Shown: piece by piece, positions 32,335-50,068 of the stretch
Layout: the number at the start of each line of letters is the position of its first letter
Numbering within the stretch: the stretch's first letter is position 1
DNA from: Cupriavidus respiraculi
Lineage (GTDB): Bacteria > Pseudomonadota > Gammaproteobacteria > Burkholderiales > Burkholderiaceae
Length of the DNA: 64,000 nt
Direction: 5' to 3'
Assembly (NCBI RefSeq): GCF_914271545.1
Contig: NZ_CAJZAH010000004.1
Coordinates: 354,179-418,178, forward strand
Program-made: the position numbers and the translations under genes
The notes under the pieces: generated by a model
Told to the model about the DNA's origin: nothing
Databases searched by the model: none
What the model saw: the letters and a program-made list of their open reading frames with translations, nothing else

Positions 32335-32351
32335 TTGGCATATCCCTTGCA
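32335..32351 (+). promoter_or_regulatory. Sigma-54 promoter candidate for the Gln-rich gene
   Basis: TTGGCATATCCCTTGCA: GG (32337-32338) and GC (32349-32350) are exactly ten bases apart. The boxes match TGGCAY and TTGCA. A start near 32362 gives a 32-base leader carrying GGAG. Confidence 0.65.
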
Positions 32352-32393
32352 CCTTTCCGGTTGCGGCAGTTCCGCCGCGACATGGAGACAGTG

Positions 32394-32639
32394 ATGAAAC
32401 AGCAACAGCCAGGTCAATCCTCCGGTGGTCAGCAGCAGCAACAGCAACCGCAGCAGCAATCCGGCATGGGCGGCCAGCAAGGCCAGAACCAGGGCAACCA
32501 GTCAGGCCAGTCGGGCACGCAAGACCAACGCAGCGGCCAGCCGCAGCAAGGTCAGCAGGGACAGCAGGGCCAGCAAGGTCAGCAAGGCCAGCAAGGCCAG
32601 CAAGGCAGCCAGGGGGGCGGCCAGGGCCAACGCAAGTAA
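32394..32639 (+). CDS. Gln/Gly-rich low-complexity (prion-like) protein
   Basis: 81 residues from ATG 32394, chosen because GGAG sits six bases upstream; starts further upstream are possible but less good. By my count 39 of 81 residues are Gln, the rest mostly Gly, Ser and Pro. Residues 51-71 are seven uninterrupted Gln-Gln-Gly triplets coded by a 9-base tandem repeat. There is no signal peptide, no membrane segment and no hydrophobic residue beyond a few Met/Pro. This is an intrinsically disordered, prion-like composition. Function unknown. It has a sigma-54 promoter candidate upstream and a strong terminator about 100 bases downstream, so it is an independent unit. Confidence 0.75.
   Translation: MKQQQPGQSSGGQQQQQQPQQQSGMGGQQGQNQGNQSGQSGTQDQRSGQPQQGQQGQQGQQGQQGQQGQQGSQGGGQGQRK
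32544..32606 (+). repeat. Seven 9-base tandem repeats coding Gln-Gln-Gly
   Basis: Units of consensus CAGCARGGY run head to tail from 32544 to 32606, in frame. Variation is confined to third codon positions and a single base, so copy number may vary by slippage. Confidence 0.9.
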
Positions 32640-32741
32640 GGCCCACGACACCTGATGCTGAAATAATGCGCTGACACGCTGCCTGCCGCAGCGCCGCCCC
32701 GTTCGCGGGGCGCGGACAGTGTCGAGGCTCAGGCCTCGGAT

Positions 32742-32779
32742 GCCGGGTTGGAAAACCAGATCCAACCCGGCTTTTCTTT
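32742..32779 (+). terminator. Rho-independent terminator of the Gln-rich gene
   Basis: Arms GCCGGGTTGGA (32742-32752) and TCCAACCCGGC (32761-32771) are followed by TTTTCTTT. Confidence 0.92.
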
Positions 32780-32942
32780 GCCATCCGTGCGTCCAATCCG
32801 TGCGCGGTCGGCCCCCGCGGTTGTGGTCTTTCGCTGACAAGGAAATCGGCCGGCCTGCCGCGGCCATGTCGGCCGCGCCGACGGCCAGCGGCACGCTGCC
32901 GTCCTAGGCTACAGGCATGGACCGCGCGCACGCGCGCCGCGT

Positions 32943-32961
32943 CCGGACCAGCCTGGTCCGG
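32943..32961. promoter_or_regulatory. Palindrome just upstream of a small gene
   Basis: CCGGACCA (32943-32950) - GCC - TGGTCCGG (32954-32961), 23 bases before the ATG at 32985. It could be an operator or a 5' hairpin controlling translation. Confidence 0.4.
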
Positions 32962-32984
32962 CTTCGTGAACGGGAGATCGGTGC

Positions 32985-33218
32985 ATGAGGATACGAGAGG
33001 AATCCGGGAAGCGTTCCAGCGAGCGCTCGCTGCGTCCCATGGTGCGCAAGTGGCTACCGGTGGCCGAAGGACCCGCCCGCGTCACCGCTTTCGGCCGCAC
33101 GGGTGCCGGACGCGTGCCCTACGTCAGCGTCGCCGTCGAGCGTGCCGGGGAGTTGCTGTCGATCATCTTCTTCCGGCACCGCGACGGATCGTGGTGCGTG
33201 TTTCCGCCGTGCCGCTGA
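32985..33218 (+). CDS. Small basic protein of unknown function
   Basis: 77 residues from ATG 32985, with GGGAG 9 bases upstream. The first 25 residues are strongly charged (MRIREESGKRSSERSLRP). The rest forms alternating hydrophobic strands (VPYVSVAVERAG, LLSIIFFRHRDGSWCVF), suggesting a small beta-sheet. No family is recognised. It converges on the secreted YTxGA-type protein, with a shared terminator between. Confidence 0.6.
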   Translation: MRIREESGKRSSERSLRPMVRKWLPVAEGPARVTAFGRTGAGRVPYVSVAVERAGELLSIIFFRHRDGSWCVFPPCR

Positions 33219-33230
33219 GACAGCACGGAT

Positions 33231-33270
33231 AAAAGCAACACGGCCCGGCGCACATCTTGCCGCCGGGCCG
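33231..33270 (-). terminator. Rho-independent terminator (minus strand)
   Basis: Arms CGGCCCGGC (33241-33249) and GCCGGGCCG (33262-33270), followed on the minus strand by TGTTGCTTTT. It serves the secreted protein gene ending at 33300. Confidence 0.75.
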
Positions 33271-33299
33271 CCGCTCAGTTGGCGGGTTCCATTAGCGGC

Positions 33300-33665
33300 T
33301 CAATTGCCGCCGTCGAGGAACTGGCTGCGCCGGCCGACGCGCGAGCCGAGCGTGTAAAGGTCGTGATAGTGCGTGTCGTCGCTGCCCATGTACCCATGCG
33401 CCCCATACGTGCCCGACATCGACTCGGCGCCCGTCGGCGCAAGCGATTGGCGCGTGGACTGGTTCGCGCCCTGGGTGTAAGGATCGAAGCGGTCGGTACG
33501 CGCGCCGCTCGTATACGGGTCGCGGGTGCCCCCTGGCGCCGGATCGCCTGCGGGGCTGTACTGCGTCGTCGGCGCAGTGCTGGTCTGTGCCTGGGCCACC
33601 GTGATGCACGAGCCCGCCAGAACCATGGCTACGAGCGCGGATTTGGAGAGGCTTTGCAATGTCAT
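33300..33665 (-). CDS. Secreted small protein with DPYT-x-GA motifs
   Basis: 121 residues from ATG 33665; AGGAG lies 12 bases upstream. A signal peptide (SALVAMVLAGSCITVAQAQ) is followed by a Gly/Ser/Thr/Tyr-rich, probably disordered mature part. It contains RDPYTSGAR and FDPYTQGAN, and later HDLYTLGSR, a repeated Asp-Pro-Tyr-Thr-x-Gly-Ala motif. The same motif recurs in the unlinked secreted protein at 51607-51891. The function of this motif is not known to me. Confidence 0.75.
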   Translation of the reverse strand: MTLQSLSKSALVAMVLAGSCITVAQAQTSTAPTTQYSPAGDPAPGGTRDPYTSGARTDRFDPYTQGANQSTRQSLAPTGAESMSGTYGAHGYMGSDDTHYHDLYTLGSRVGRRSQFLDGGN

Positions 33666-34152
33666 TGAATCACTCCTGCTATGCCTGCGAGACGCTGGCC
33701 GCGGCAAGCCGCGGCAAACCCCTGCGCAGGACGGTGAATAAGCAGTCCGCACCGCTGGGCGTTGACGGACAAGACTACGTGTTGCCGGCATCGCTCTAGG
33801 TTGTCGGGCGATGCGCAACCAAGGGGAAACGACGCGAAACCCATGCCAACATGCGCTGCGCCGTGCACGTTGCCGCGTTCGCGCTTCGCGTGGGCAAGCG
33901 CATTTGCGCCCGGCAACCCGTCACCGCAAGCGCGCGGTGTGCCGCGTGCTCGACATCGGGGACCGCTTCTGTTTCGTACTTTTTACCAGCGGCTGCATAA
34001 AGTTCATGGCGCGAGTCGCGCGCCTCGAGGACTGTAGGACGTGGCCCGATGGTTCCCCTTCACCGCTGTGTCTTATAAGCACACTTAGAACCCGCACATA
34101 GCGTCGCGCGTTGCAGCGCGTGGCATCAACGACGTCTTAACGGAGCGTTCAT
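33666..34152. other. Upstream region of ligD, no gene seen
   Basis: 487 bases. Frames here lack family features. It holds the 12-mer at 33976-33987. At 34042 the string TGGCCCGATGGTTCC resembles a sigma-54 promoter but has CC where the -12 GC should be. AACGGAG precedes the ligD ATG. No RNA gene seen. Confidence 0.5.
33976..33987. promoter_or_regulatory. 12-mer shared with the 42.8 kb promoter region
   Basis: GTACTTTTTACC, identical in reverse complement to GGTAAAAAGTAC at 42809-42820. It lies 166 bases before the ligD start. It is a candidate activator binding site. Confidence 0.5.
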
Positions 34153-37086
34153 ATGGCCAGGAGCCCAACCGCCTCGACACCGCGCGCCGCCACGAAGTCT
34201 GCGAAGGCCGCGAAGACGGCGACGCCTGCAAAGAAAGCGAAGACATCGAAGACAGCGAGGACATCAAAGACAGCGAAGGATCCGAAGCCTCGGAAGACGG
34301 CGCCGGCAAAGCATGACGTGGCGGCGGACCCGCTCGCGCGATATCGCGGCATGCGGGACTTCGGCACGACCAGCGAGCCCAGCGGCGCGGCGGGCGAGCC
34401 GGCGCGCAAGAGCGCGACACGCGCGAAAAAAACGCCCGCGCTGTCCTTCGTGATTCAGAAGCACGCCGCGCGCCGTCTGCACTACGACTTCCGGCTGGAA
34501 CTCGACGGCACGCTGAAAAGCTGGGCCATCCCGAAGGGGCCGAGCCTGGACCCCGCGGACAAACGCATGGGCGTGCATGTCGAAGACCACCCCCTCGAAT
34601 ACGCGAGCTTCGAAGGCGTGATACCGGAAAAGCAGTATGGGGCTGGCACCGTGATCGTCTGGGACCGAGGCACCTGGGTGCCGGTCGGTGATCCGCACGA
34701 AGGCTATCGCAGCGGCAAGCTGAAGTTCGAGCTGCAGGGCGAGAAGTTGCACGGCGGCTGGACCCTGGTGAAGATGAAGAACCGCGCCGACGCGCGCCAG
34801 GAGCCCTGGCTGCTGATCAAGGAGCGCGACGACTGGGCGCGTCCGGCCGCGGAGTTCGACATCACGCAGGCGCTGCCGGACAGCGTGCTGTCCGGCGTCA
34901 TGCCGGCCGCCGGCGCCACGAAGGCGAAGAAGACAGCGGCCGGCGCGGCGGGCGCCAAGGCGTCGCGCGTCGCCGCGGCCGTCGAGGAACTCGAGCAGGA
35001 CGAGGATGTGGACGAGGGCGAGAGGGACGACGCCCCGCGTCCCGCGAAGCGCGGCGCACGCGGCAAGCGCGACGACGCGGCGCTGCCCGAAGGGGCGCGC
35101 CCCGGCCCGCTGCCGCTGACGCTCGCGCCGCAACTGGCCACGCTGGTGAGCGAAGCCCCGGCCCATCCGGACCAATGGGTCTACGAGGTCAAGTTCGACG
35201 GCTATCGCATCCTGGCGCGCGTCGACGGCGGCAAGGTGACGCTGTTCACCCGCAACGGCCACGACTGGACCGCGAAGCTCAAATCGCTGGCGCAGCAGGT
35301 CGCAGCGCTCGGCCTGCCGTCGGGCTGGCTGGACGGCGAGATCGTGGTCGTCGGCGAGGATGGCAACACCGATTTCCAGGCGCTGCAGAACGCGTTTGAC
35401 AGCGCGCGCACCGACAGCATCCAGTACTTCGTGTTCGATCTGCCCTTCTACGCGGGACACGATCTGCGCAAGGTACCCCTGGTGGAACGGCGCGCGCTGC
35501 TGCGGCGCCTGTTCCAGTCCGATGCTCCGCCGCACCGCGTGCGCTTCTCCGAAAGCTTCGAGGTGGGCGCGGGCGAGATCCTGACGGCGGCGTGCCGGCT
35601 GCGGCTCGAGGGCGTCATCGGCAAACGGCTCGACGCGCCGTACGTGTCCCGCCGCTCGGACAGCTGGATCAAGCTCAAATGCAGCGAGCGCCAGGAGTTT
35701 GTCATCGGCGGCTTCACCGAGCCGCAGGGCAGCCGCACCGGCATCGGGGCGCTGCTGCTCGGCATCCATGACGAACAGGGACGGCTCGTGTACGCGGGCA
35801 AGGTCGGAACCGGCTTCGATACCGATACGCTGCAGGACATCCGCAGGAAACTGGACGCCGTGCGCGCCGAGGCAGCGCCCTTCCACCACGTGCCCACGGG
35901 CGTCAAGGGACTATGGGTGCGGCCCAAGCTCGTGGCCGAGGTCTCGTTCGGCGCCTGGACCAAGGACGGCCTGATCCGGCACTCCGTGTTCCATGGGTTG
36001 CGCACCGACAAGAGCGCGGGCGCGATCGGCCGGGAGAAGGCGGTGCCACCGCCCGACAGCGATAGCGGCGGCTCGCCGCCGCGCGGGGCCAGGGCCGCCG
36101 CCAAAGCCGGGCCCGCCGCGGGCAAGGCCGGCCGCCCCGCCCCGGGGGGGACCACGGGCGCTGCCGCGGCCCGCTCTGGCGGCAAGGGCGGCGCCGGCAC
36201 GATCGGCGGCATCAAGGTAAGCCATGCCGACCGCGTGATCGACCCGTCGACGGGACTGACCAAGGGCGACCTGGTCCGCTACTACGAGGCCGTCGGACCG
36301 GTCATGCTGCCGCACCTGGCCGGGCGCCCGGTGGCGCTGGTGCGCGGCCCCACGGGCGTGGGCGGCGAGCTGTTCTTCCAGAAGCATGGCGACACGCTGC
36401 GCATGCCCGGCATCCGGCAGCTGGACCCCAGCCTCTGGCCGGAGCACCCGCCGCTGCTGGAGGTCGCGACCGAGACCGGGCTGGTGGCCGCCGCGCAGCT
36501 CAACGTCATCGAATTCCACACGTGGAATGCGGACAAGCGCAGCATCGAGAAGCCGGACCGCATCGTCTTCGACCTGGACCCCGGCGAGGGCGTACCCTGG
36601 CAGCACGTCACCGAGGCGGCCGCCCTCACGCGAGCCATGCTGGAGGAGCTGGGTCTGGTGCCGTTCCTGAAAACGAGCGGCGGCAAGGGGCTGCACGTGG
36701 TCGTGCCGCTGCAGCGCAAGCTGGAGTGGGACGAGGTGAAAGCGTTCTCGCAGGACGTGGTGGTCCATATGGCCCGGACCATCCCCCAACGCTTCGTGGC
36801 CAAGAGCGGGCCGCGCAACCGCGTCGGCAAGATCTTCATTGACTACCTGCGCAACGGCCGAGGCGCCACCACGGCGGCCGCCTTCTCGGCGCGGGCCCGC
36901 CCGGGGCTGGGCGTCTCCATGCCGATCCATTGGGAAGAACTCAAATCGCTGCGCTCGGGCGCGCAATGGACCATCGACGACGCCATCGCGCGGGTGAACG
37001 AGATGGCGGACGACGATCCCTGGGCCGGCTACGCGTCCACGCGCCAAACCCTCGCCGCTGCCATCAAGCGCATCCGCGCCGACTGA
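34153..37086 (+). CDS. ligD: Multifunctional ATP-dependent DNA ligase D (NHEJ)
   Basis: 977 residues from ATG 34153. Domain order is phosphoesterase - ligase - polymerase. A Lys/Ala/Thr-rich N-terminal tail (residues 14-55) precedes the 3'-phosphoesterase domain (about 98-250, with KHAARRLHYDFRLELDG). The adenylating Lys is about residue 347 in YEVKFDGYR, and the OB fold follows. After an Ala/Gly/Lys-rich linker, the primase-like polymerase domain runs from about 685 to the end, with the metal-binding Asp pair in FDLDPGEG near 807. With Ku it repairs double-strand breaks by end joining. Ku lies 3 kb downstream in the same direction, separated by two other genes. Confidence 0.96.
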   Translation: MARSPTASTPRAATKSAKAAKTATPAKKAKTSKTARTSKTAKDPKPRKTAPAKHDVAADPLARYRGMRDFGTTSEPSGAAGEPARKSATRAKKTPALSFVIQKHAARRLHYDFRLELDGTLKSWAIPKGPSLDPADKRMGVHVEDHPLEYASFEGVIPEKQYGAGTVIVWDRGTWVPVGDPHEGYRSGKLKFELQGEKLHGGWTLVKMKNRADARQEPWLLIKERDDWARPAAEFDITQALPDSVLSGVMPAAGATKAKKTAAGAAGAKASRVAAAVEELEQDEDVDEGERDDAPRPAKRGARGKRDDAALPEGARPGPLPLTLAPQLATLVSEAPAHPDQWVYEVKFDGYRILARVDGGKVTLFTRNGHDWTAKLKSLAQQVAALGLPSGWLDGEIVVVGEDGNTDFQALQNAFDSARTDSIQYFVFDLPFYAGHDLRKVPLVERRALLRRLFQSDAPPHRVRFSESFEVGAGEILTAACRLRLEGVIGKRLDAPYVSRRSDSWIKLKCSERQEFVIGGFTEPQGSRTGIGALLLGIHDEQGRLVYAGKVGTGFDTDTLQDIRRKLDAVRAEAAPFHHVPTGVKGLWVRPKLVAEVSFGAWTKDGLIRHSVFHGLRTDKSAGAIGREKAVPPPDSDSGGSPPRGARAAAKAGPAAGKAGRPAPGGTTGAAAARSGGKGGAGTIGGIKVSHADRVIDPSTGLTKGDLVRYYEAVGPVMLPHLAGRPVALVRGPTGVGGELFFQKHGDTLRMPGIRQLDPSLWPEHPPLLEVATETGLVAAAQLNVIEFHTWNADKRSIEKPDRIVFDLDPGEGVPWQHVTEAAALTRAMLEELGLVPFLKTSGGKGLHVVVPLQRKLEWDEVKAFSQDVVVHMARTIPQRFVAKSGPRNRVGKIFIDYLRNGRGATTAAAFSARARPGLGVSMPIHWEELKSLRSGAQWTIDDAIARVNEMADDDPWAGYASTRQTLAAAIKRIRAD

Positions 37087-37128
37087 ACTGAAGGGCCCCG
37101 ACGCGGCGGGTGCAGCCGGCACCGCGGA

Positions 37129-37143
37129 GGGCACGGTTCTTGC
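37129..37143 (+). promoter_or_regulatory. Sigma-54 promoter candidate for a secreted small protein
   Basis: GGGCACGGTTCTTGC: GG (37130-37131) and GC (37142-37143) ten bases apart. Apart from the first base it matches TGGCACG-N4-TTGC fully. The leader to ATG 37221 would be about 66 bases. Confidence 0.6.
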
Positions 37144-37220
37144 CACTCTGTGCGCATGGAAACGCTCGCCGGCCTGCCCGGCCGCGGGCGCATCACGACC
37201 GTTCGCCGCAGGGAGGCCCT

Positions 37221-37607
37221 ATGAACCGTTCTCCGTTTGCCAACTTCGCGACCTCCGTCGCCCGCGCCCTTGCCCCTCGACCGTGGCTGGCCGCAGCCGC
37301 CTTTGCCGCCGCGCTGGGCGCCCTGCCCGCGCATGCGAAGCTGCCCCCGCCAACACCGGAGCAGCAGCAGGCGGCCGACGCCAAGAAGGCTCGCGAAGCC
37401 GAGGAAGCCAAGCGCCAGGCGGAGGCGCTGGGCAAGGTGCAGGACACCATTGCCGCCCGTTTCGGCAAGGGCCCCAGCACCCCCACCTCGCAGACCGCTC
37501 CCGGCGACTTGCCCCAGAAGGCAGTCGAAGCGCCCGGCACCAGCGGCCCGCGCGGGGGCACCGCACCTAGCGCGGAGGCTCACTCTGGCGAAGCGCAACG
37601 CCGTTGA
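37221..37607 (+). CDS. Secreted Ala/Lys/Glu-rich small protein
   Basis: 128 residues from ATG 37221; GGGAGG lies five bases upstream. A signal peptide (WLAAAAFAAALGALPAHA) is followed by a charged helical region (PEQQQAADAKKAREAEEAKRQ...) likely to form a coiled coil or single helix, then a Pro/Gly/Ser-rich tail. It sits between ligD and the hybrid kinase gene. No known family; an upstream sigma-54-type promoter is the only clue to its regulation. Confidence 0.7.
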   Translation: MNRSPFANFATSVARALAPRPWLAAAAFAAALGALPAHAKLPPPTPEQQQAADAKKAREAEEAKRQAEALGKVQDTIAARFGKGPSTPTSQTAPGDLPQKAVEAPGTSGPRGGTAPSAEAHSGEAQRR

Positions 37608-37808
37608 GGCGCCCGGACCACTGGAGGGTCAGACCTTCCCGGCGGGTAACGCCGGGATCTGCGGAGCCACGCATTCTTTACAACACGTCTTTCGGCACGC
37701 TGGTAATTCCTACAACACACCATGCGTAGACCGGCGGTCCGTGCCCGGGAGCCCGGACCTCGCCGAATGCAACAGGCTGATTTGAAAAACGATATCCCTG
37801 AACACGCC

Positions 37809-39959
37809 ATGAATAGTCAACCCCCTCCGTCCACGCCCGGTCCCGCTGACGCGACGCGCCCTTTGCTGCTGGTGGTGGATGACAACGATGGGTCCCGCTA
37901 TGTGAAGAGCCGCATCCTGCGCCGCGCCGGCTACGCCGTGCTGGAAGCGAGCACAGGCGAGTCGGCGCTTGCGCTGGTGCGCCGCTATGGTCCCGACCTG
38001 GTGCTGCTGGACATGCGGCTACCCGACATCGACGGCCTGCGGGTGTGTCAGTTGATCAAGGACGACCCCGAGAGCGGCCGCACGCTGATCCTGCATACCT
38101 CGGGCAACACCAGCAATCCCCGCTACCGCGCCGAGGCGCTGGATCACGGCGCCGACAGCTATCTGGTCGAGCCGGTCGAGCCGGAGGAACTGGTGGCCAG
38201 CGTCAAGGCGCTGCTGCGGCTGCGCCAGGCCGAGGAGGCGTATCACCGGACGTCGCAGGCCCTGCGCGACAATGAACTGCTGTTCCGGCAGCTGGCCGAC
38301 AACCTCTCCGATGTGCTGTGGATCTTCGATCCGGCCGAACGGCGTTTCCTGTTCGTCAGTCCGGCGTTTTTCGCGCTGAGCGGGCGTCCCCCCGAGGCGC
38401 TGCAGAACGGCGGGAGCCGCAGCTTCGAGTGGATCGACCCCAGGGACCGCGAGCGCGTTCGCACCGCGTGCGACTCCATGCTGCGCGATGGCCGCCTGGA
38501 CATCGAGTTCTCGCTGCTGCGCCCCGACGGCGAGGCGCGCCAGGTGCGCGCGCGCGCGTTCCCGGTGACCAACGTCAAGGGCGAGCTTTATCGCGTGGCC
38601 GGCGTCTGCGAGGACGTCACCGAGCAGAAGCGCGCCGAGAAGATGCTGGTCGAGGAGGAGCGCCGCAAGGACGATTTCCTCGCGATGCTGGTTCACGAAC
38701 TGCGCAACCCGCTCGCGCCGATGCGCAGCGCCGCGGATCTGATGATGCATCTGGCGCCGTCGCGCGAAGACAACTTCAAGGCGCGCGACATCATCGCGCG
38801 CCAGCTCTATCACCTGACCCGGCTGGTGGACGACCTGCTCGACATCTCCCGCTTCACGCAGGGCCGCATCGTGCTGCGGCACGACCTGGTCGAGCTGCGC
38901 AACGCCTTGAGCACCGCCGTGGAGACGGTCAAGCCGCTGATCGAATCGCGCAACCACACGCTGCGGCTGTCGGTGCCCGAGGGACCGATGCCGGTGCGCG
39001 GCGATCTGGTCCGCCTTACGCAGATCTTCGGCAACCTGCTGAACAACGCTGCCAAGTACACCCCGCCCGACGGATTGCTGACGCTGGATGTCACCGCCGA
39101 TCAGGGCATGGTGACGGTGCGGATCACCGACAACGGCACGGGCCTGTCGCCCGAACGCGTGCGCGCGATGCGGGACAGCTTCGCCACCACGGACTCCGGG
39201 GCGGTCGCCGTCTCGGGCGGCGATGGCCCGGGCATCGGCCTGTCGCTGGTACACAAGCTGGTCAGCCTGCACGGCGGCCGGCTCTCGGTCGAAAGTGCGG
39301 GCCCCGGCCACGGCAGCACCTTTATCGTGTCGCTGCCGGTGGAGCCGTGGCGCAGCTGGAAGCCGTCAACGCGCTCGCTGCACCAACCCGCCGGCCGTCC
39401 CCGCAACGTGCTGGTGGTCGACGACAACGTCGATGCGCTCGAAGCGATGGCGATGACGCTGGAGGCCCTGGGCCACACCGTGATCACCGCGCTCGACGGC
39501 GGTGCCGCCATGGTCCGCGCGCTCAAGTACAAGCCGGACGTGGTCCTGCTGGATTTGGGAATGCCGGGCATGGATGGCTTCGAGATCGCGCAGCGGCTGC
39601 GCGCCATCCCGGACCTCGCCCACATGCGCATCATCGCCCTGACCGGCTACAGCCAGCCGGCCGACCGGGTGCGCACCAAGGCGGCGGGGTTCGACCATCA
39701 CCTGACCAAGCCGGTCGACCTGGAAGAGCTGTCGCGGGTGCTGAACGCCGATGGCGGCGCTTCCGGCGACGGCGCCGCTTCCGCACCTGCCGACAAGACA
39801 GACAAGGAGACCACCATGCATACCACGCCCGAACCCGACACCACGCCGGATACCCCGCCGGTGCCGCCCGGCCCCGAGGTGCCCGATCCCGATCCGCACG
39901 AGCCCGTCATGGATCCGCCGCCGGGCGACATTCCCCCGCCCCCGCCGCAGCGCGCCTGA
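37809..39959 (+). CDS. Hybrid histidine kinase (REC-PAS-HisKA-HATPase-REC)
   Basis: 716 residues from ATG 37809; ATGs at 37767 and 37722 are in frame, and none has a strong ribosome-binding site. No membrane helix, so it is cytoplasmic. Order: receiver 1 (about 19-137, Asp 68 in LLDMRLPD), PAS (about 160-275), HisKA with His 296 (MLVHELRNPLAP), HATPase (NLLNNAAKY, GIGLSL), receiver 2 (DVVLLDLGMPG). In receiver 1 the usual Lys is Glu (YLVEPVEP). The last 47 residues are a Pro/Asp-rich tail behind an internal ATG with a perfect ribosome-binding site. It lies between the ligD region and Ku. Confidence 0.88.
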   Translation: MNSQPPPSTPGPADATRPLLLVVDDNDGSRYVKSRILRRAGYAVLEASTGESALALVRRYGPDLVLLDMRLPDIDGLRVCQLIKDDPESGRTLILHTSGNTSNPRYRAEALDHGADSYLVEPVEPEELVASVKALLRLRQAEEAYHRTSQALRDNELLFRQLADNLSDVLWIFDPAERRFLFVSPAFFALSGRPPEALQNGGSRSFEWIDPRDRERVRTACDSMLRDGRLDIEFSLLRPDGEARQVRARAFPVTNVKGELYRVAGVCEDVTEQKRAEKMLVEEERRKDDFLAMLVHELRNPLAPMRSAADLMMHLAPSREDNFKARDIIARQLYHLTRLVDDLLDISRFTQGRIVLRHDLVELRNALSTAVETVKPLIESRNHTLRLSVPEGPMPVRGDLVRLTQIFGNLLNNAAKYTPPDGLLTLDVTADQGMVTVRITDNGTGLSPERVRAMRDSFATTDSGAVAVSGGDGPGIGLSLVHKLVSLHGGRLSVESAGPGHGSTFIVSLPVEPWRSWKPSTRSLHQPAGRPRNVLVVDDNVDALEAMAMTLEALGHTVITALDGGAAMVRALKYKPDVVLLDLGMPGMDGFEIAQRLRAIPDLAHMRIIALTGYSQPADRVRTKAAGFDHHLTKPVDLEELSRVLNADGGASGDGAASAPADKTDKETTMHTTPEPDTTPDTPPVPPGPEVPDPDPHEPVMDPPPGDIPPPPPQRA
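39816..39959 (+). CDS. Possible separate Pro-rich 47-residue peptide inside the kinase 3' end
   Basis: ATG 39816 is in frame with the kinase and is preceded by AAGGAGACCACC, a near-ideal ribosome-binding site and spacing. The peptide starts MHTTPEPDTTPDTPPVPPG and ends PPPPPQRA, and is almost entirely Pro, Asp, Glu and Thr. It could be made independently as well as as a tail. Confidence 0.45.
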   Translation: MHTTPEPDTTPDTPPVPPGPEVPDPDPHEPVMDPPPGDIPPPPPQRA

Positions 39960-40035: not shown

Positions 40036-41019
40036 ATGCCACGCGTCATCTGGAAGGGCGCCATCTCGTTCGGCCTGGTCAATATCCCCGTGGTGCTGAA
40101 GGCGGCCGCGCGCGACAACGCGCTGGACTTCGACTGGCTGGACGAGCGTGACATGTCGCCGGTCGGCTATCAGCGGGTGAACAAGCGCACCGGCAAGACG
40201 GTCGACAAGGACCACATCGTCAAGGGCTACCAGTACGAGAAAGGCGAGTACGTGCTGCTGTCGCCGGAAGACTTCCGCCAGGCCAACGTGGAGGCCACGC
40301 AGACGGTCGACATCGTCAGCTTCGTCGAGGCGGACCGGATTCCGCCGTACTACTTCGAGACGCCCTACTACCTGGAGCCGGACAAGCGCGGCGACAAGGG
40401 CTACGCGCTGCTGCGCGAGACCCTGCGCCAGACCGGCCGCGCGGCGCTTGCGCTGGTGGTGATCCACAACCGGCAGCATCTGGCCGCGGTGCTGGTGCTG
40501 GACCAGGCGCTGGTGCTCAACACGATGCGCTGGGCCGAGGAAGTGCTGCCGATGGACGACCTGCGCCTGCCTGCTGGCGGCACCAAGAGTGCCGGCGTCA
40601 GTCCGCGCGAGATCGAGATGGCGGCGAGACTGGTCGAGGACATGCAGGAAGACTGGTCCCCCGAGGCCTACCGCGATACCTACCGCGACGATCTGCTCAA
40701 GCGCATCGAGGAAAAGATCTCGGCCGGCAAGACCCATGTGCTCACGCCCGCGGACGCGGGCGACACCGGCACGCGCAAGTCCGCCGACGTCATCGACATG
40801 ATGGCGCTGCTCAAGCAGAGCATTGCCCAGCGCGGCGGCGACGGCAAGGCGGCGGGCAAATCGGCGAAGGCCGAGAAGCCGGAGAAAGCGGAGAAAGCGG
40901 AGAAGCCTGCCGCGAAGAAAAGCACGAAGGCCAGCACCAAGCGGGCACCGGCGAAAAAGAAAACGGCCGCTTCAGCGAAGCGGCCGGCGACCAAGGCGGC
41001 TCAGCGCAAGACAGCCTGA
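40036..41019 (+). CDS. ku: Ku DNA-end-binding protein (NHEJ)
   Basis: 327 residues from ATG 40036, with CGGGAG upstream. Opens MPRVIWKGAISFGLVNIPV, the hallmark of bacterial Ku. The central core includes YEKGEYVLLSPEDF and the ETPYYLEPD segment. Bacterial Ku homodimers ring the broken DNA end and recruit LigD. A Lys/Ala-rich C-terminal tail of about 60 residues (KAEKPEKAEKAEKPAAKKST...) is typical of proteobacterial Ku and contributes to DNA binding. It follows the hybrid kinase by 76 bases. Confidence 0.96.
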   Translation: MPRVIWKGAISFGLVNIPVVLKAAARDNALDFDWLDERDMSPVGYQRVNKRTGKTVDKDHIVKGYQYEKGEYVLLSPEDFRQANVEATQTVDIVSFVEADRIPPYYFETPYYLEPDKRGDKGYALLRETLRQTGRAALALVVIHNRQHLAAVLVLDQALVLNTMRWAEEVLPMDDLRLPAGGTKSAGVSPREIEMAARLVEDMQEDWSPEAYRDTYRDDLLKRIEEKISAGKTHVLTPADAGDTGTRKSADVIDMMALLKQSIAQRGGDGKAAGKSAKAEKPEKAEKAEKPAAKKSTKASTKRAPAKKKTAASAKRPATKAAQRKTA

Positions 41020-41069
41020 GCCGGGCGCCCGCGCCGGGGGCGGCTTGACCACCGGCGCGGCATCGACGC

Positions 41070-41528
41070 TCAGGCCCACGGATCGTAGCGATCTTCCTTC
41101 CAGTACGGCGAAGCGCCGTAGTAATCATGGATGCTGGTGGCCCACTGCGAATCGGCCATGGTCGGCCAGTGCTCCTTGTCGAAGCCGGGCGCCGCCTGCA
41201 GCTTTTCCTTGTCCACGCCGAGCACGAAACATTTACGGCGGGTATCCAGTGTCAGCGCGGACCACGGCACCGCGAACAGCTTCTCGCCGATGCCGAGGAA
41301 GCCGCCGAACGACAGCACGGCGTAGGCCACGCGGCCGCCGCGCACATCGAGCATGATGTGGTCGATGGTGCCGAGGTCCTCGCCGCCGGGGCCGATCACG
41401 TTGTTGCCTTCCAGCGTATCGGCGGCCATCACGAAGGGGCCAGGACCGCTGCGGTTCTCGTCGATGTCGCCGACGATGGCGGCGCCGCCGGTGGGAAGAT
41501 CGCCGGTGGGGGGTTCAACTGGATTCAT
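41070..41528 (-). CDS. PRC-barrel domain protein
   Basis: 152 residues; ATG 41528 is preferred over 41534 because AGGAGG is then eight bases upstream. The PRC-barrel is clear: MAADTLEGNNVIGPGGEDLGTIDHIMLDVRGGRVAYAVLSFGG, then KLFAVPWSALTLDT. Single PRC-barrel proteins are often stress-associated in proteobacteria; the name comes from photosynthetic reaction centre H subunits. The C-terminus (WATSIHDYYGASPYW) is a recognisable tail. It is the last of a minus-strand run with the glycine-zipper and Lys/Ala-rich genes, and converges on ku. Confidence 0.85.
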   Translation of the reverse strand: MNPVEPPTGDLPTGGAAIVGDIDENRSGPGPFVMAADTLEGNNVIGPGGEDLGTIDHIMLDVRGGRVAYAVLSFGGFLGIGEKLFAVPWSALTLDTRRKCFVLGVDKEKLQAAPGFDKEHWPTMADSQWATSIHDYYGASPYWKEDRYDPWA

Positions 41529-41611
41529 CTGCATTACCTCCTGCTCGGTGGTGAACCTGGTACGCGACCGGCGGCAACGGCCGCGCGATCAACGGGTGAA
41601 GCGGGGTGAAT

Positions 41612-42202
41612 TCACGGCCGGCTGGCCGGCACGGGCGGCACCAGCGGATCGAAGTCCACCCATCGTCCCTCGCTCCAGCGGCCATAGGCGCGTTCCAGAT
41701 CCATCGCGCCAGCCTCGCGCAGCACGTCGGCCGCGGTCTGCCGGTTGTTCTCGTCGACGCGCACGGCCAGCAGCACGCCCGCATCGCGTTCCGTCTTGCC
41801 GTCGATGGTGTTGGTCGCCGGCAGGTTTTCCTCGCGCGGCGCATTGGAGGCGCCATCGCGCGTCATGGCCAGCGCGCCGACCAGCGAACCGAGATAGGCG
41901 CCCAGGCCCGTGGCCAACGCCATGACGAGCACCGACGCCTGCATCAGCGCGAGCGCCACCGCGCCCAGCACGGCACCGGCGATCGCACCGATCACGATGC
42001 CGCGGCCAGCACCCGCGCCGGCCTTCTTGGCGCCGGCATCGACCTTCACATCGCCGCCGATCGGAAAGCGGCCGTGCTGGCCGGCCGGATTGACAAAGAA
42101 GAGGGTGACGTCGTCTTCCTGAAAGCCGCGCGAAAAAAGCTGGCCGGCGGCAGCTTCCGCGGCGACGAATGTGTCGAAGCGACCGGCAATGATGAGCGAC
42201 AT
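41612..42202 (-). CDS. Glycine-zipper membrane protein
   Basis: 196 residues from ATG 42202, with AGGAG upstream. The N-terminus (MSLIIAGRFDTFVAAEAAAGQLFSRGF) is a ferredoxin-like fold found in general-stress proteins. The centre carries two Gly/Ala-rich membrane helices (IVIGAIAGAVLGAVALALM and VLVMALATGLGAYLGSLVGAL), a glycine zipper. A second ferredoxin-like half (GVLLAVRVDENNRQTAADVLREAGA) follows. This resembles DUF1269-like/YflT-flavoured stress membrane proteins. It probably belongs to the same transcript as the Lys/Ala-rich gene upstream (89-base gap). Confidence 0.75.
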   Translation of the reverse strand: MSLIIAGRFDTFVAAEAAAGQLFSRGFQEDDVTLFFVNPAGQHGRFPIGGDVKVDAGAKKAGAGAGRGIVIGAIAGAVLGAVALALMQASVLVMALATGLGAYLGSLVGALAMTRDGASNAPREENLPATNTIDGKTERDAGVLLAVRVDENNRQTAADVLREAGAMDLERAYGRWSEGRWVDFDPLVPPVPASRP

Positions 42203-42291: not shown

Positions 42292-43705
<1,414 letters not shown>

Positions 43706-43766
43706 GGGCACTCAGGTTGTGATGAACCACCATCGCGGGCGGAAAGGTTTGTGGTTGCCGGATGCC

Positions 43767-43784
43767 AAGCATACCTTGGGCCAA
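43767..43784 (-). promoter_or_regulatory. Sigma-54 promoter candidate for the sensor-less kinase
   Basis: Minus strand TTGGCCCAAGGTATGCTT with GG-N10-GC spacing exact (plus strand 43781-43782 and 43769-43770). The -24 box TGGCCC is the same as that at 42720-42736; the -12 is ATGC rather than TTGC. Leader about 52 bases. Confidence 0.55.
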
Positions 43785-43896
43785 GGAGCGTCCCTCGGAT
43801 GGTCGTGCCCGGTCGGGATGCGGGTGCAACGGGCGGTGCGGGACATCATGCCCGGGAGCGGTGTCGCGGCGTGCCGTGCTTGTGGGCCGCGCCACC

Positions 43897-45306
<1,410 letters not shown>

Positions 45307-45592
45307 AGGCTTGAAGTAGCTGCGGCCGGCGCGCCGCGCCGGCTTGGCATGGATTACACGGAAGCCGGCGGGCAATGGTGGCGCCGGGAGCCGGCTTCCT
45401 TCGAAAAGGCGGCCGGGGCGGAACGCCCTGAGCATGAAGCCGGAACGGGTCCAGCCTGCGTGCCCGCTATTGCGCTCGTGCGGGAGATAGATTCCATTCT
45501 ATGCAAGGCTGGCAGCGCAACATACCAGTGTTCGTCTGACATGAAAACGGCGCTGCCCGTGGTAAAAAAAACAATTGGTCGCGCCCCCACCC

Positions 45593-45609
45593 AGGCGCTA
45601 GCATTGCTT
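45593..45609 (+). promoter_or_regulatory. Sigma-54 promoter candidate for the orphan activator
   Basis: AGGCGCTAGCATTGCTT with GG (45594-45595) and GC (45606-45607) exactly ten apart; -12 box perfect (TTGCTT), -24 box partial (AGGCGC). Leader about 64 bases. Confidence 0.45.
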
Positions 45610-45625
45610 ACAACCGTTCACCATC

Positions 45626-45659
45626 ACGTTGCCGCCCGGCCGCAGGCCTGCGGCAACGT
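45626..45659 (+). promoter_or_regulatory. Hairpin in the orphan activator leader
   Basis: ACGTTGCCGC (45626-45635) and GCGGCAACGT (45650-45659) form a perfect 10-base stem around a GC-rich 14-base loop, ending 23 bases before the ATG. It may act as an attenuator, mRNA stabiliser or weak terminator. Confidence 0.45.
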
Positions 45660-45682
45660 GTGTTTATAGCCAGCCAACGTCC

Positions 45683-46699
45683 ATGTCCAGCAGCGTAGTG
45701 TCCGACTCCCCCGCTTCATCGACGCCCCATCGCCTGCATCCGCGCGACGCGCAGATCGGTCAGATGTCCATGTTCTGGCAGAGCACGTCGCCGGCCATGC
45801 AGGGCCTGCTGGCCCAGATCCCGCGCGTGGCGGCAACCGATGTGCCCATGCTGGCGGTCGGCGAAAGCGGCACCGGCAAGGAACTGGTGGCCCGGGCGGT
45901 ACACGAGCGCAGCAACCGCCAGGGCAAGCCTTTCATTGCCGTGAACTGCGGCGCGATTCCGGCCACGCTGATCGAGTCGGAACTGTTCGGCCACGAAAAG
46001 GGCGGTTTCACCGGTGCCGTGCAGCAGAAGGCGGGCTACTTCGAGCAGGCCCACGGCGGCACGCTGTTCCTGGACGAGGTGACCGAGATGGCGCTCGACA
46101 TGCAGATCAAGCTGCTGCGGGTGCTGGAGACGCGCACCTTCCATCGCGTCGGCGGCGACACCCAGGTCGTGTGCGACGTGCGCATCGTGTCGGCCACCAA
46201 CCGCGATCCCATGGAGGCCGTGCGCAGCGGCCAGCTGCGCGAGGACCTGCTGTACCGGCTCGCCGTGTTTCCGCTGCATATCCCGCCGCTGCGGGACCGC
46301 CGCGAGGACATCGTCCCGATGGCCAAGCATTTCCTGGCCGAACTGAACGCGGCCGAAGGCACCGACAAGGTGTTCTCCAACAGCGCGCTGGAGCGGATGT
46401 GCCAGTACGGCTGGCCGGGCAATGTGCGCGAACTGAAGAACACGATCCACCGCGCCTTTATCCTGGCCGATCGCGTGATCGAGGTACCCAATCCCAATAT
46501 CGCCTCGCAGCCGCCGGTGCCCATCGCCGCGGACGGCATCCTCAACGTGCGGATCGGCACCTCGCTGGCGGACGCCCAGCGCGGGCTGATCCTGGCCACG
46601 CTGGCGCGCTTCGACGGCGACAAGCGGCGCGCCGCCCATGCGCTGGGCATCAGCCTGAAGACCCTGTACAACCGGCTCGATACCTACCGCGACGGCTGA
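45683..46699 (+). CDS. Orphan sigma-54 activator (AAA+-Fis HTH, no receiver)
   Basis: 338 residues from ATG 45683. It lacks a receiver or sensor domain; only about 30 unstructured residues precede the AAA+ domain, with Walker A GESGTGKE (60-67), the loop GGFTGA (107-112, Gly where Ala is usual), Walker B GGTLFLDE (125-132) and a Fis-type C-terminus containing LGISLKTLYNRL. This recognition helix is identical to that of the divergent NtrC-type regulator, so they probably bind the same sites. Without an input domain it may be constitutively active or controlled by amount, as with PspF. Confidence 0.92.
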   Translation: MSSSVVSDSPASSTPHRLHPRDAQIGQMSMFWQSTSPAMQGLLAQIPRVAATDVPMLAVGESGTGKELVARAVHERSNRQGKPFIAVNCGAIPATLIESELFGHEKGGFTGAVQQKAGYFEQAHGGTLFLDEVTEMALDMQIKLLRVLETRTFHRVGGDTQVVCDVRIVSATNRDPMEAVRSGQLREDLLYRLAVFPLHIPPLRDRREDIVPMAKHFLAELNAAEGTDKVFSNSALERMCQYGWPGNVRELKNTIHRAFILADRVIEVPNPNIASQPPVPIAADGILNVRIGTSLADAQRGLILATLARFDGDKRRAAHALGISLKTLYNRLDTYRDG

Positions 46700-46749
46700 C
46701 GCGCCGGCCGCGGAAACCCCCGGCGAACGGCCGGGCGAAGGATGGGACG

Positions 46750-47601
46750 CTAGCCGGGAAACAGCCGCAGCCGCGAAACCAGCGGCAGGTGGTCCGAGGC
46801 GCAGCGCGCCAGCTCCGAACGATGGCTAGCAACGGAGACCAGCACCGCGCGCGGCGAGCTCCAGATCCGGTCCAGCGCGAACACCGGCAGCCGGGACGGA
46901 AAGGTCGCCACATGCGGCGCACGCTCGAAATACGCATGCAGCCAGCGCAGCGGGCGCCCCCACAGGAACCACTCGTTGACATCCCCCAGCAGCACCGTCG
47001 GCACGCCCGGCTGCTCGCGCAGCGAGGAAAGCAGACGCTTGACCTGGAGCCGGCGCTCCTTGGGCCACAGCCCCAGATGGGTGGCGATGACCCGCAGCGG
47101 GAAATGCTCCCCTTCGGACACCGTGCAGGCGAGCATCGCATCGATCGCCCCGCGCGGTTCCCGCCGCGGCACGCTCAGGTCCAGGCGGCGCGTCGACAGG
47201 GGCGCAAAGCGGGTCAGCAGCGCGTTGCCGTACTCGCCATCCGGGCGCACCAGCGTGGGTCCCGGAATCGCGTGATAGCCAGTGTGCTCGGCGAGAAAGC
47301 GCAGCATGTCGAAGCCCGTGGTGCGCGACTCCACCTCCTGCAGCGCGATGATGTCGGCGGCGATCTCGTTGAGCACGCCGGCCACGCGCTTGGGCATGAA
47401 CCGCCCGTCGGTGCCCACGCCGCCATGCACGTTGTAGCTCGCAACCTCGATGGTGGTGGGCAGGGCCACGGCGCCCGCCGTGTCGACCGTGCCCGCCGTG
47501 CCGGACCTATCGCCCGCAACCAGCGCCTCGACCGCCGTCGCTACGTCGGCGGCCCCGTCCAGGTCCGCGACGTCGTTGGTGTTTTCGTAACCTGTCTTCA
47601 C
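46750..47601 (-). CDS. Endonuclease/exonuclease/phosphatase (EEP) family protein
   Basis: 283 residues. The start is GTG 47601, GTGA-overlapping the stop of the PLD gene upstream, with GGAGG nine bases before. EEP motifs: VASYNVHGG, ALQEVES with the metal-binding Glu, ATHLGLWPKERRLQ, LLGDVNEWF with Asp and Asn, and the C-terminal ASDHLPLVSRL with the catalytic His. Substrates in this superfamily range from DNA to phospholipid head groups. Coupling to a phospholipase D gene favours phosphodiesters of lipids, but the DNA-repair context nearby leaves nucleic acid possible. Confidence 0.87.
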   Translation of the reverse strand: MKTGYENTNDVADLDGAADVATAVEALVAGDRSGTAGTVDTAGAVALPTTIEVASYNVHGGVGTDGRFMPKRVAGVLNEIAADIIALQEVESRTTGFDMLRFLAEHTGYHAIPGPTLVRPDGEYGNALLTRFAPLSTRRLDLSVPRREPRGAIDAMLACTVSEGEHFPLRVIATHLGLWPKERRLQVKRLLSSLREQPGVPTVLLGDVNEWFLWGRPLRWLHAYFERAPHVATFPSRLPVFALDRIWSSPRAVLVSVASHRSELARCASDHLPLVSRLRLFPG

Positions 47602-49916
47602 GTTGGATGTCCTCCATGCGCGCCGCGCGGCGCGGGACCATGCGCCAGCGGCTCCTGCGCGGCCGCCGCGGCCTGTCGCTTGCGCTTGCGCCGCAGGATC
47701 AGCAACGCACTGATCGGGATCAGCAGCACCAGCAGCAGCAGGGCGAAGGTCAGCGGGCCGGGGTTGCGCGCCGCCGCCGCGATGCGGTCCACCAGCGAGG
47801 CCGAGATGACGATGCCGGGCGTCATGCCGAGCGCCGTGCCCAGCAGGCAGTCGCGGAAGCTGATGCGCGACGCCCCCACCACCAGGTTGACCAGCGTGAA
47901 CGGCGCCACCGGCACCAACCGCAATACCACCATGGCCAGGACCCCGTGCTGCCCCACCTGCTTGCTCAGCGCATTGAGCCGCTTGCCGCCGAATCGCCGC
48001 ACCGCGTCGCGCCCAGCCACCCGTCCCAGCCCGTAGCCGGTCGCCGCGCTCAGCACCACGCCCGCCAGCGCATACAGCGCGCCCAGCACCGGGCCGAACA
48101 CGATGATGGTGACGACGATCAGCACGGTCACGGGCACGAGGACCAGACCGCCCGCGACAAACGCGCCGATCATGGCGAGCGGCGCGAACGGCAGCGTGTC
48201 GAACTGCTCGACCAGATCGAGCACGCGGCGGAAATCGGCCCACTCGCGCAGCGGCGTATAGCGCCACGCGAAGGCCAGCGTGCCGAGCAACAGCAGCAGC
48301 GCGATCAGAATGCCGACGCGGCCGACCACGCGCGGCCGCGCCTCGTGGGTCAGGAATTCGTCGACCAGGTTGTCCGGCTCGATCGGCTCGATCGGATCCA
48401 GCAACGCGGCGTCCGGCAGCATGGCGTCGATCTCGGGCAGCAGCGGCGGATCGAAGGCGTGCAGGGTGCGCTCGCCCGGTCGGTGGTAGCGCGCGATGGT
48501 GTCGTGCAGCGCTTCGCCGCGCTCCTGCGCGGCGACCAGTTCCTGCGGCGGCACGTCCAGATGCTCCCCGATCAACCGCGCGCGCATGGCGCGGATGGCC
48601 GCGGCGATACGCGGGTCGCCGTTGGACTCGATGACCAGGTTGCATTCGGTATCGAGCCCCATCGAGCGGTTGTTCAGGTTCGCCGAACCGATGGTCAGCA
48701 GCTTGTCGTCGACCACCATCACCTTGCTGTGCACGTTGACCCCGGGCTTGCCGGCCGCGGTGTCGGTGTCGTCGTCTTCGCCCGGCACGCGCGGGCAATA
48801 CAGCCGGTAGCGGTGATGTTCGTCGACCGTGCGCAGCTTGCGGTGCGCCCGCGCCCGCAGCGCGCCCATGCTGTGCTCCTCCAGCCAGCCGCTTTCGCTG
48901 CGGCGCGAGACGATGGCCACCTCGGGGCCGTCCGCCTCGGGCAGCCGCTCGGCGAGCGCATCGGCGACCAGCGCCGAGCTGAAGTACTGGTTCTCCATGT
49001 AGAGCGTGCGTTCGGCCGCGGCAATGGCGTCCAGATGCAGCGCCCGGATCTCACCGATGCCCGGTTCGTCCTCGAACCGCGGCGCGGTGCGCGCGATGGC
49101 CACCGGCACGTCGGTCAGATCCGGCGTCACCCCCGCCGGCCACAGCCGGCGCCTGACCTTGTCGGGCGGCCGCGGCCAGCGGCCAGTGGCGCGGTGCCAG
49201 CGCTCGGCGGCCATTTCGCCGAGCGCGCGCGCCGCCGCGCCGTCGACGGCCGCCTGCACGTCGTGGAACGGGCCGTAGGGCTTGCCATCGGGATCCACGC
49301 GCATGGGGTCGTCCAACGCATGGCGCGCGGTATCCCAGCGGCAGCGGGTCAGGTCCAGGCCACCGGCAAACCCCAGGCAGTTATCGATCACCACCACCTT
49401 CTGGTGATGCGAGGCACCGACCGGGTGGCGTCCGTCGAGCCGGAAGGTGAGGCGGCGATGTGTCTGCCAGTCGAGCTTGACCGCCGGCAGCCACTCGCGC
49501 TCCATCGCGTAGACCATGGCGAAGTCCCAGCTCAGGACGTAGATGCGCAGCCGCCGCCGGCGCCGCACCAGGGCATTGAGAAAATCGCGCAGGCCTTCGG
49601 GAAAGCCATCGTTGGCGCCGCCGGGGACGAGCTGGAAGCGGCTGTCGATATCCCAGCCCAGGATGAATACGGTGTGCTCGGCCTCGATCAGGGCGGCACG
49701 CAGCGCGCGGAAATACGCCTCGCCATCGACCAGCATGGCGAAGCGCTCGGCCGGCTCGATGCGCCAGCAGTTGCGGCCGGGCTGCAGGATGGCGGAGCCT
49801 GGTCGGCGCGGCGGCGGCTCGGGCGTCAGCATGGCGGCCGACTGGCCGGCGGCCGTGCGCGCGTCGGCGCCGGTCGTGCCAGCGAAAGCGGCGAAAGGTG
49901 GTTTCTGGTCGGTCAT
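47598..49916 (-). CDS. Phospholipase D fused to a VTT (DedA-like) membrane domain
   Basis: 772 residues from ATG 49916 (MTDQKPPFAAF). The first two-thirds is a two-HKD phospholipase D: motif 1 in SHHQKVVVIDNCLGFAGGLDL, motif 2 in VHSKVMVVDDKLLTIGSANLNNRS, as in eukaryotic-type PLDs and cardiolipin synthases. After a linker comes a membrane anchor helix (IALLLLLGTLAFAW) and a VTT/DedA domain with VFGPVLGALYALAGVVLSAATGYGLG and APFTLVNLVVGAS, ending in a Lys/Arg-rich tail. The fusion joins lipid cutting or transfer to a lipid-scramblase-like domain. A sigma-54 promoter candidate lies about 140 bases upstream. Confidence 0.9.
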   Translation of the reverse strand: MTDQKPPFAAFAGTTGADARTAAGQSAAMLTPEPPPRRPGSAILQPGRNCWRIEPAERFAMLVDGEAYFRALRAALIEAEHTVFILGWDIDSRFQLVPGGANDGFPEGLRDFLNALVRRRRRLRIYVLSWDFAMVYAMEREWLPAVKLDWQTHRRLTFRLDGRHPVGASHHQKVVVIDNCLGFAGGLDLTRCRWDTARHALDDPMRVDPDGKPYGPFHDVQAAVDGAAARALGEMAAERWHRATGRWPRPPDKVRRRLWPAGVTPDLTDVPVAIARTAPRFEDEPGIGEIRALHLDAIAAAERTLYMENQYFSSALVADALAERLPEADGPEVAIVSRRSESGWLEEHSMGALRARAHRKLRTVDEHHRYRLYCPRVPGEDDDTDTAAGKPGVNVHSKVMVVDDKLLTIGSANLNNRSMGLDTECNLVIESNGDPRIAAAIRAMRARLIGEHLDVPPQELVAAQERGEALHDTIARYHRPGERTLHAFDPPLLPEIDAMLPDAALLDPIEPIEPDNLVDEFLTHEARPRVVGRVGILIALLLLLGTLAFAWRYTPLREWADFRRVLDLVEQFDTLPFAPLAMIGAFVAGGLVLVPVTVLIVVTIIVFGPVLGALYALAGVVLSAATGYGLGRVAGRDAVRRFGGKRLNALSKQVGQHGVLAMVVLRLVPVAPFTLVNLVVGASRISFRDCLLGTALGMTPGIVISASLVDRIAAAARNPGPLTFALLLLVLLIPISALLILRRKRKRQAAAAAQEPLAHGPAPRGAHGGHPT

Positions 49917-50052
49917 GACGGCCTGTGAGCACAGCGACGCGCCAGGGTCCGGGCGCGCGCGCCGCGATTGCAATGTCGACCTGTGCCGCGCGTCAGCCGC
50001 TGCCATGCCGTGGATCGGCCCAGCGGCGCGGCGGCAAGGGAACAGGAACGGG

Positions 50053-50068
50053 CGCAAGCTCCATGCCA
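50053..50068 (-). promoter_or_regulatory. Sigma-54 promoter candidate for the PLD-EEP operon
   Basis: Minus strand TGGCATGGAGCTTGC with GG-N10-GC exact (plus strand 50066-50067 and 50054-50055). Matches TGGCAY-N5-TTGC fully. Leader about 126 bases. Confidence 0.65.

Follow-up and report, generated by a model that had tools for sequence, protein, structure and literature searches.

The window, a 64-kb stretch of Cupriavidus respiraculi DNA, sits on the 418-kb contig C4, part of an 18-contig genome of 5.59 Mb. It carries a gene cluster with ligD, Ku and two activators of the sigma-54 (RpoN) type in its middle. A palindromic operator, about TGTAnTTnTTACA, is found mostly 85-155 bp upstream of -24/-12 sites, both in this cluster and at unlinked genes. 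These paired elements give good support to a sigma-54 regulon that would include genes for trehalose/glucan synthesis, for KGG-like, SDR and BON proteins and for a PLD, and probably also the unit of hybrid kinase and Ku. We think it fairly probable that this regulon acts as a Cupriavidus switch for stress survival, with the shared operator as its mark and the local activator pair as the most likely proteins to work through it.

In the proposed mechanism, RpoN-RNA polymerase would wait at the -24/-12 promoters of the targets. An AAA+ activator bound to the TGTAnTTnTTACA-type operator would loop over and open the promoter using ATP. The likeliest activators would be a response regulator (43897-45306) and an orphan enhancer-binding protein (EBP; 45650-46699), probably acting jointly. 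Input would come from a soluble kinase (42860-43711) and perhaps also from a hybrid kinase (37806-39959). Within the window, the predicted targets are the KGG-like, Gln-rich and small secreted proteins, the hybrid kinase (with Ku by read-through) and, in this species, a PLD-EEP unit. Beyond it, they would be glgE-treS-glgB, glgA, an SDR gene and a BON-domain gene.

Position and conservation of the -24/-12 sites

RpoN is encoded once in the genome, in a 515-aa open frame (PF04552, E 1.4e-68). TGGCACG-N4-TTGC is given as the sigma-54 consensus in PMC3224663, and boxes were scored against TGGCACG-N4-TTGCW, with 12 scored bases. The sigma-54 matrix was weighted manually to reflect the consensus, and gene starts were also chosen by hand. 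The initial annotation proposed boxes in front of six genes, and all six 16-mers are present within one base of where it placed them. By this measure, its statement that four of the six match at every key base, or at every one except a single base, is generous. Only 42720 is one base short (11 of 12); 50053, 37129 and 32336 are two short (10 of 12), and the sites at 43768 and 45593 each match at 9.

By number, the boxes are at the level of chance. Over the whole 64 kb and both strands, there are 10 matches at 10/12 or better where an order-2 Markov model expects about 8.9, and 44 matches at 9/12 where it expects 53. Their significance comes from their position upstream of genes. For 20 genes from 29.7 to 53.6 kb, the 220 bp upstream were scored in the sense direction and compared with 400 dinucleotide shuffles. 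Six of the 20 regions hold a site of at least 10 (those of the Gln-rich gene, 33300-33668, 37197, the KGG-like gene, the kinase and PLD), against 0/20 in antisense; the shuffled mean is 0.63, the maximum is 3, and none of the 400 shuffles reaches 6. At a threshold of at least 9, the sense count is 8/20 (45593 and a site before YggT are added), with 2 in antisense and a shuffled mean of 1.03. The boxes thus stand out from shuffled DNA by position, as the initial annotation expected of real promoters. Genome-wide, the strict -24/-12 pattern occurs 59 times against 17 for the reversed pattern, an excess that says nothing on this cluster.

Conservation was read from 20-kb stretches flanking the activator in 19 genomes of the genus that carry both EBPs and in one genome of another family; these relatives share ancestry, so the counts are not all independent. 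The support is very strong for the promoter at 42720. This site, TGGCCCGTGCCTTGCA (42720-42735, minus strand), precedes a Lys/Ala-rich, disordered-looking protein (42292-42684, minus) that has no Pfam or NCBIfam match and that we take to be KGG-like. The gene is preceded by TGGC[CG]C[GA]-N4-TTGCA in 19/19 cases (the window and 18 relatives with the gene), and the protein itself is only about 50-75% identical across these relatives. Support from conservation is good for the sites at 32336 and 37129. The first, TGGCATATCCCTTGCA (32336-32351, plus), lies 5' of a Gln-rich, low-complexity small protein without a Pfam match (32355-32639, plus). Its core is kept in 3/3 closest species while the flanks differ in L241 and L242 (TGGCATGTCCGTTGCA and TGGCACGCCCATTGCA), and L241 has an operator 221 bp upstream. 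The second, GGGCACGGTTCTTGCC (37129-37144, plus), stands before a small protein, secreted by eye and without a Pfam match (37197-37607, plus). It recurs as GGGCAYGG[TC]TCTTGCC in L032, L033 and L034, and is thus found in the 3/3 closest genomes plus L034. Support is moderate for TGGCCCAAGGTATGCT (43768-43783, minus), the -24/-12-like site before the soluble kinase, which the 3/3 closest genomes retain. The comparable site of L035-L050 still shows GCAYG-N4-TTGC by eye, with the first G of the GG lost, for example CAGCACGTTTCTTGCT.

A seventh promoter, overlooked by the initial annotation, is TGGCATGGGTTTCGCG (33833-33848, minus). It serves a small protein (33300-33668, minus) that is secreted by eye, is divergent from ligD and shares 50-58% identity with its counterparts in L241 and L242. 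Here, TGGCATGnGTTTCGCG is kept in 3/3 species, with an operator 140-186 bp upstream. The PLD promoter, TGGCATGGAGCTTGCG (50053-50068, minus), was called from its motif score and from an operator 94 bp upstream.

The claim that all six genes are driven by sigma-54 is supported for the four conserved boxes and, through its operator, for 50053. It does not extend to AGGCGCTAGCATTGCT (45593-45608, plus), the box claimed before the orphan EBP. That box is kept in L032, but in L033 the GG-to-GC spacing is, by eye, two bases shorter. A TAGCAT core, sigma-70-like by eye, is common to all three species. The 45593 box is probably not a sigma-54 site and more likely belongs to a sigma-70-type promoter. 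Apart from the unconserved 50053, the remaining promoters are sense-oriented, beyond chance and conserved, which is not the case for 45593 or for ligD.

That the boxes are simply chance matches in GC-rich DNA is very improbable. The whole-window counts equal the Markov expectation and one box of the six fails conservation, as such an origin would have it; the shuffle test, operator pairing and conservation, including that at glgE, speak against it for most boxes.

The operator and its unlinked targets

When the KGG upstream regions are aligned, GTAnTTTTTACC emerges as another conserved block, located 5' of the -24 element. Within it, TTTTTACC is exact in 15/19 regions and variant in L033, L045, L049 and L050. 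Genome-wide, TTTTTACC occurs 20 times against 45 for the reversed word, and four of its occurrences are within the window. The refined pattern KGYANTTNTTACM has 8 matches in 5.59 Mb, against 2 reversed, and 7 of the 8 are on C4. Two look like chance: one on C3 in a coding frame (by eye), and one inside a PLD-like gene at 29.7-30.4 kb. The other six point to the KGG gene, PLD, glgE, glgA, the SDR gene and the BON-domain gene.

All six of these C4 operators, which score at least 20, are followed in the direction of the gene by a -24/-12-like site at a distance of 86-117 bp; five of the sites score at least 14 and that of the BON gene 8.1, with an operator matrix that was trained partly on those same sites. 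An independent test used a matrix from the KGG operators only and excluded the KGG sites. On C4, 5/11 operators of at least 15 have a site of at least 14 at 40-160 bp downstream, where the upstream control gives 0 and the expected fraction is 0.004; two of the five share the SDR promoter, so four promoters are involved. In the loci of the 19 relatives, 18/27 operators have a downstream site of at least 10, with 1 in the upstream control and an expected fraction of 0.067. At a site score of at least 14, the figures are 5/27 downstream and 0 upstream. Bare operator counts per genome were also considered as evidence. In 30 Cupriavidus genomes, the sample used for all genus-wide counts, they are mostly no better than the reversed control and hence uninformative, so operator-promoter pairs were used instead.

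In the window, the operator of the KGG-like gene, TGTACTTTTTACC (42809-42821, minus), is 86 bp upstream of the 42720 promoter. The PLD promoter has TGCAGTTTTTACA (50150-50162, plus) 94 bp upstream, with a weaker second copy at 50120. An operator-like sequence, TGTTTTTTTTACC (45561-45573, minus), in the divergent region of the response regulator may be chance, and no operator of at least 13 is seen in that region of L032 or L033.

The targets elsewhere on C4 are GlgE (PF11896), followed by TreS-maltokinase and GlgB, which would form one operon with it, and GlgA, the SDR protein and the BON-domain protein. The regulon is thus not merely local, as had been supposed. These genes carry the same operator-promoter pairs, and at glgE the arrangement is genus-wide. 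The glgE gene is found in 26/30 genomes, and operator and promoter precede it in 24/24 genomes that encode the EBP pair and have a glgE start that can be read. They are 92-134 bp apart, and 100-104 bp apart in 18 of these genomes. Left out of this count are L310 (genome G023, where the start is outside the locus) and L311 (a second piece of G044). In G005, which has no EBP pair, the 1.5 kb upstream of glgE hold no operator of at least 12, and the nearest 1 kb no sigma-54 site of at least 9. The glgA gene has operator and promoter in 12/13 genomes that have both the EBP pair and a glgA match; the exception, G041, has a distant homologue (50%). In G011, glgA has the operator only. Because of the shared operator, the idea of one regulon is much stronger than it was from boxes alone, and that part of the initial annotation is supported; that the activators bind the operator remains our inference. 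In diauxic batch culture of C. necator H16, seven starch/sucrose-pathway genes, including trehalose synthase, were overexpressed among the top 50 changed genes (PMC4377017). Sigma-54-dependent hydrogenases were up-regulated within the same study. We count this joint rise of trehalose/glucan genes in favor of the proposed regulon.

Two further operators on C4 (C4:49438 and C4:49532) have no -24/-12 partner and lie upstream of a histidine-kinase-like frame (47177-49348, minus). On contig C1, two weaker operator-promoter pairs at C1:253138-254760 stand before CBS-domain-like and SDR-like genes (named by eye) and are possible extra members. A 400-kb stretch of C1 holds no operator of at least 16, and none of at least 15 by the KGG-only matrix.

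The activator pair and competing explanations

The initial annotation saw two sigma-54 activators in the middle of the cluster, and both are there. The response regulator (43897-45306, minus) has a REC domain, an AAA+ domain with a GSFTGA loop and a Fis-type helix-turn-helix (HTH). The orphan EBP (45650-46699, plus) has no receiver and combines an AAA+ domain with a GGFTGA loop and HTH_8. Domain searches found PF00158 and PF02954 in both proteins, and the loops of the GAFTGA type, read in the translations, place both in the NtrC family. Neither reaches an NCBIfam cut-off among the 25 best models for each. The best resemblances, all below the curated cut-offs, are to AtoC, NtrC, NifA, FlbD and RtcR. 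The nearest relatives of the orphan EBP are in C. gilardii (82-83% identity). The recognition helices of the two proteins are identical over 10 protein letters. Of the 30 genomes, 26 have the pair; the four without it are G005, G022, G023 and G011, the last of which is 54% complete. The two local EBPs would most likely be the proteins that bind the operator.

The regulon and operator may instead be real with the operator bound by another regulator, either an unlinked EBP or a non-EBP factor, while the local pair serves other targets; we regard this as unlikely. In favor of it, the genome holds 11 matches to the EBP at E<=1e-40, and ligD has an operator with no -24/-12 site. G023, which is 97% complete, lacks both EBPs at E<=1e-90 and retains, ahead of glgA, an operator and a promoter separated by 65 bp. 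This genome speaks against the local pair as the operator-binding proteins. On the other side, the operator is found chiefly on C4, the contig where the EBP pair is encoded. In addition, the pair and the glgE operator-promoter unit co-occur in 24 genomes, and both are missing from G005. These observations favor the local pair as activators.

In Pseudomonas, an RpoS-type stress island carries ligD, ku, glgE/treS, Con-10-like and PLD genes. A similar gene set is RpoS-dependent there; the Cupriavidus cargo looks very similar and comes with sigma-54-type promoters and an upstream operator. The targets could be driven mainly by sigma-70 or RpoS promoters, the -24/-12 sites being minor or vestigial. 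The upstream regions of ligD and of the EBP gene look sigma-70-like by eye, and RpoS is among the sigma factors of C. metallidurans (PMC9045368). Such a scheme is quite improbable given that the -24/-12 cores persist amid diverging flanks and coding sequence (19/19 for the promoter of the poorly conserved KGG protein) and that operator spacing at glgE is near-fixed.

Some results weigh against the regulon proposed here, in addition to G023 and the chance-level box counts over the window. The PLD box at 50053 was not found in the two close species L032 and L033. No operator of at least 10 lies within 300 bp upstream of the Gln-rich, 37129 and histidine kinase promoters in the window. On C1, 3/11 weak operators (at least 12) have a sigma-54 site of at least 11 at 76-97 bp, which means either that weak pairs alone prove little or that the regulon extends to C1. 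From the interval between the ligD operator and the ligD start, no ligD-facing -24/-12 site above 7.3 was recovered in 10/10 segments. The tandem operators nearest the hybrid kinase are downstream, not upstream, of the sigma-54 promoter, which is an unusual geometry.

The initial annotation described a regulon around LigD and Ku, with DNA-end repair among its roles. For ligD (DNA ligase D; 34153-37086, plus; domain search), sigma-54 control is rejected. An operator, CGTACTTTTTACC (33975-33987, plus; matrix score), lies between ligD and the divergent small gene, and an operator is upstream of ligD in 10/10 segments examined, with no credible -24/-12 site facing the gene. In the window, the -24/-12 partner of this operator is on the opposite side, toward the divergent small gene. 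Ku would belong at best by read-through. The hybrid kinase (37806-39959, plus; REC-PAS-HisKA-HATPase-REC) is preceded by two tandem operators (37670-37714, plus, at 37670-37682 and 37702-37714) whose starts are 32 bp apart; doubled operators about 32 bp apart are found in the window, L049 and L050. Ku, the protein for non-homologous end joining (NHEJ), begins 77 bp after the kinase (40036-41019, plus; domain search). Because a -24/-12 site of at least 10.8 precedes the small gene or the hybrid kinase in 7/7 genomes examined, expression of Ku by read-through from the 37129 promoter, ahead of the small secreted gene and the kinase, is likely. In L315 (the Paraburkholderia sp. PGU19 plasmid), Ku (5294-6229, minus) is immediately preceded by a near-perfect -24/-12 site, TGGCACGTGCCTTGCA (6268-6283, minus). 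This site falls in the gap after ligD, and the plasmid also carries a related EBP.

The core idea of a sigma-54 regulon holds on this evidence and extends past the window, with two details, 45593 and ligD, that were wrong. The proposed theme of DNA-end repair and membrane lipid does not fit as well as stress or desiccation survival, which better describes the targets. Sigma-54 is usually linked to nitrogen, motility and specialised catabolism, and the general-stress role is normally held by RpoS or extracytoplasmic function (ECF) sigma factors. More tentatively, and with somewhat less than even confidence, we suggest a sigma-54-based general-stress response to desiccation or starvation, in which a two-component, two-activator module at a dedicated palindromic enhancer would give RpoN control of trehalose/alpha-glucan synthesis, disordered protectants, BON and SDR proteins and NHEJ (Ku). 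If so, a conserved EBP module acting through an operator of its own would tie trehalose/glucan synthesis, and probably end joining, to an activator that requires a signal. Since such an activator needs to be switched on, the survival genes would stay silent until called. The analysis also supplies precise promoters and operators for a genus used in biotechnology (C. necator) and points to probable regulators of glgE-treS. A literature search returned no description of such a regulon in the titles or abstract openings of the top matches, subscription papers being mostly outside its reach. Predicted sigma-54 targets in Ralstonia are tabulated in PMC4371752, and PMC9045368 states that its algorithm did not identify RpoN motifs in C. 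metallidurans.

Related systems and neighbouring genes

The proposed system shares the AAA+ core, Fis-type HTH, upstream enhancer and -24/-12 promoter with the NtrC-family bEBP/sigma-54 regulons (NtrC, ZraR and RtcR). It differs from them in its operator, TGTAnTTnTTACA, and in its stress-survival target set. The enhancer-like operator is 86-117 bp upstream of the promoter on C4 and 92-134 bp upstream at glgE. HrpR and HrpS are likewise EBPs encoded side by side whose DNA-binding helices are very similar, and at least one of them lacks a receiver. The Cupriavidus pair resembles them in its near-alike helices and in the receiver absent from one member. Unlike HrpR/HrpS, one EBP here has a receiver, the genes are divergent and the targets are stress genes; a heteromer would be hypothetical.

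Within the cluster, a PRC-barrel protein (41070-41534, minus) and a Gly-rich, membrane-like protein (41612-42202, minus) are syntenic within the genus. The full order of PRC-barrel, Gly-rich protein, KGG-like protein, kinase and response regulator is kept in 16/19 relatives. The soluble histidine kinase (42860-43711, minus) has no sensor domain recognised by domain search. Domain searches also identified an endonuclease/exonuclease/phosphatase (EEP) family protein (46750-47586, minus) and the PLD-domain protein (47598-49859, minus), which has a VTT domain and is cardiolipin-synthase-like under the NCBIfam cut-off. The YggT gene (50870) has a -24/-12-like site, TTGCACGGCCGATGCA, upstream within 50799-50850, with a score of 9.8; the best site of two relatives differs. 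The small proteins at 33300-33668 and 51607-51891, both secreted by eye, have DPYTxGA-like repeats in common, read in the translations.

Burkholderia megaplasmid islands (L268, L313 and L314) carry the same divergent pair of response regulator and orphan EBP, about 53-54% identical, and BON, SDR, PRC or Hsp20 genes lie nearby. Operators of at least 10 are paired with a promoter in 3/6 cases in L268, 0/5 in L313, 0/4 in L314, 0/9 in L315 and 2/10 in L316. On this low pairing, the idea that the operator is shared with Burkholderia or Paraburkholderia was dropped. Identity of the Burkholderia locus with the low-oxygen-activated (lxa) locus is not established by what PMC6127331 and PMC9104464 were found to state. 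In L313 (Burkholderia pyrrocinia pBPJTT), the homologous EBP pair (1549-2988) is separated by about 10 kb from a copy of rpoN carried on the plasmid. This rpoN has its own -24/-12 site, TGGCACGAAAGCTGCA, at 3038 on the minus strand, and CBS and PRC-barrel genes are close by.

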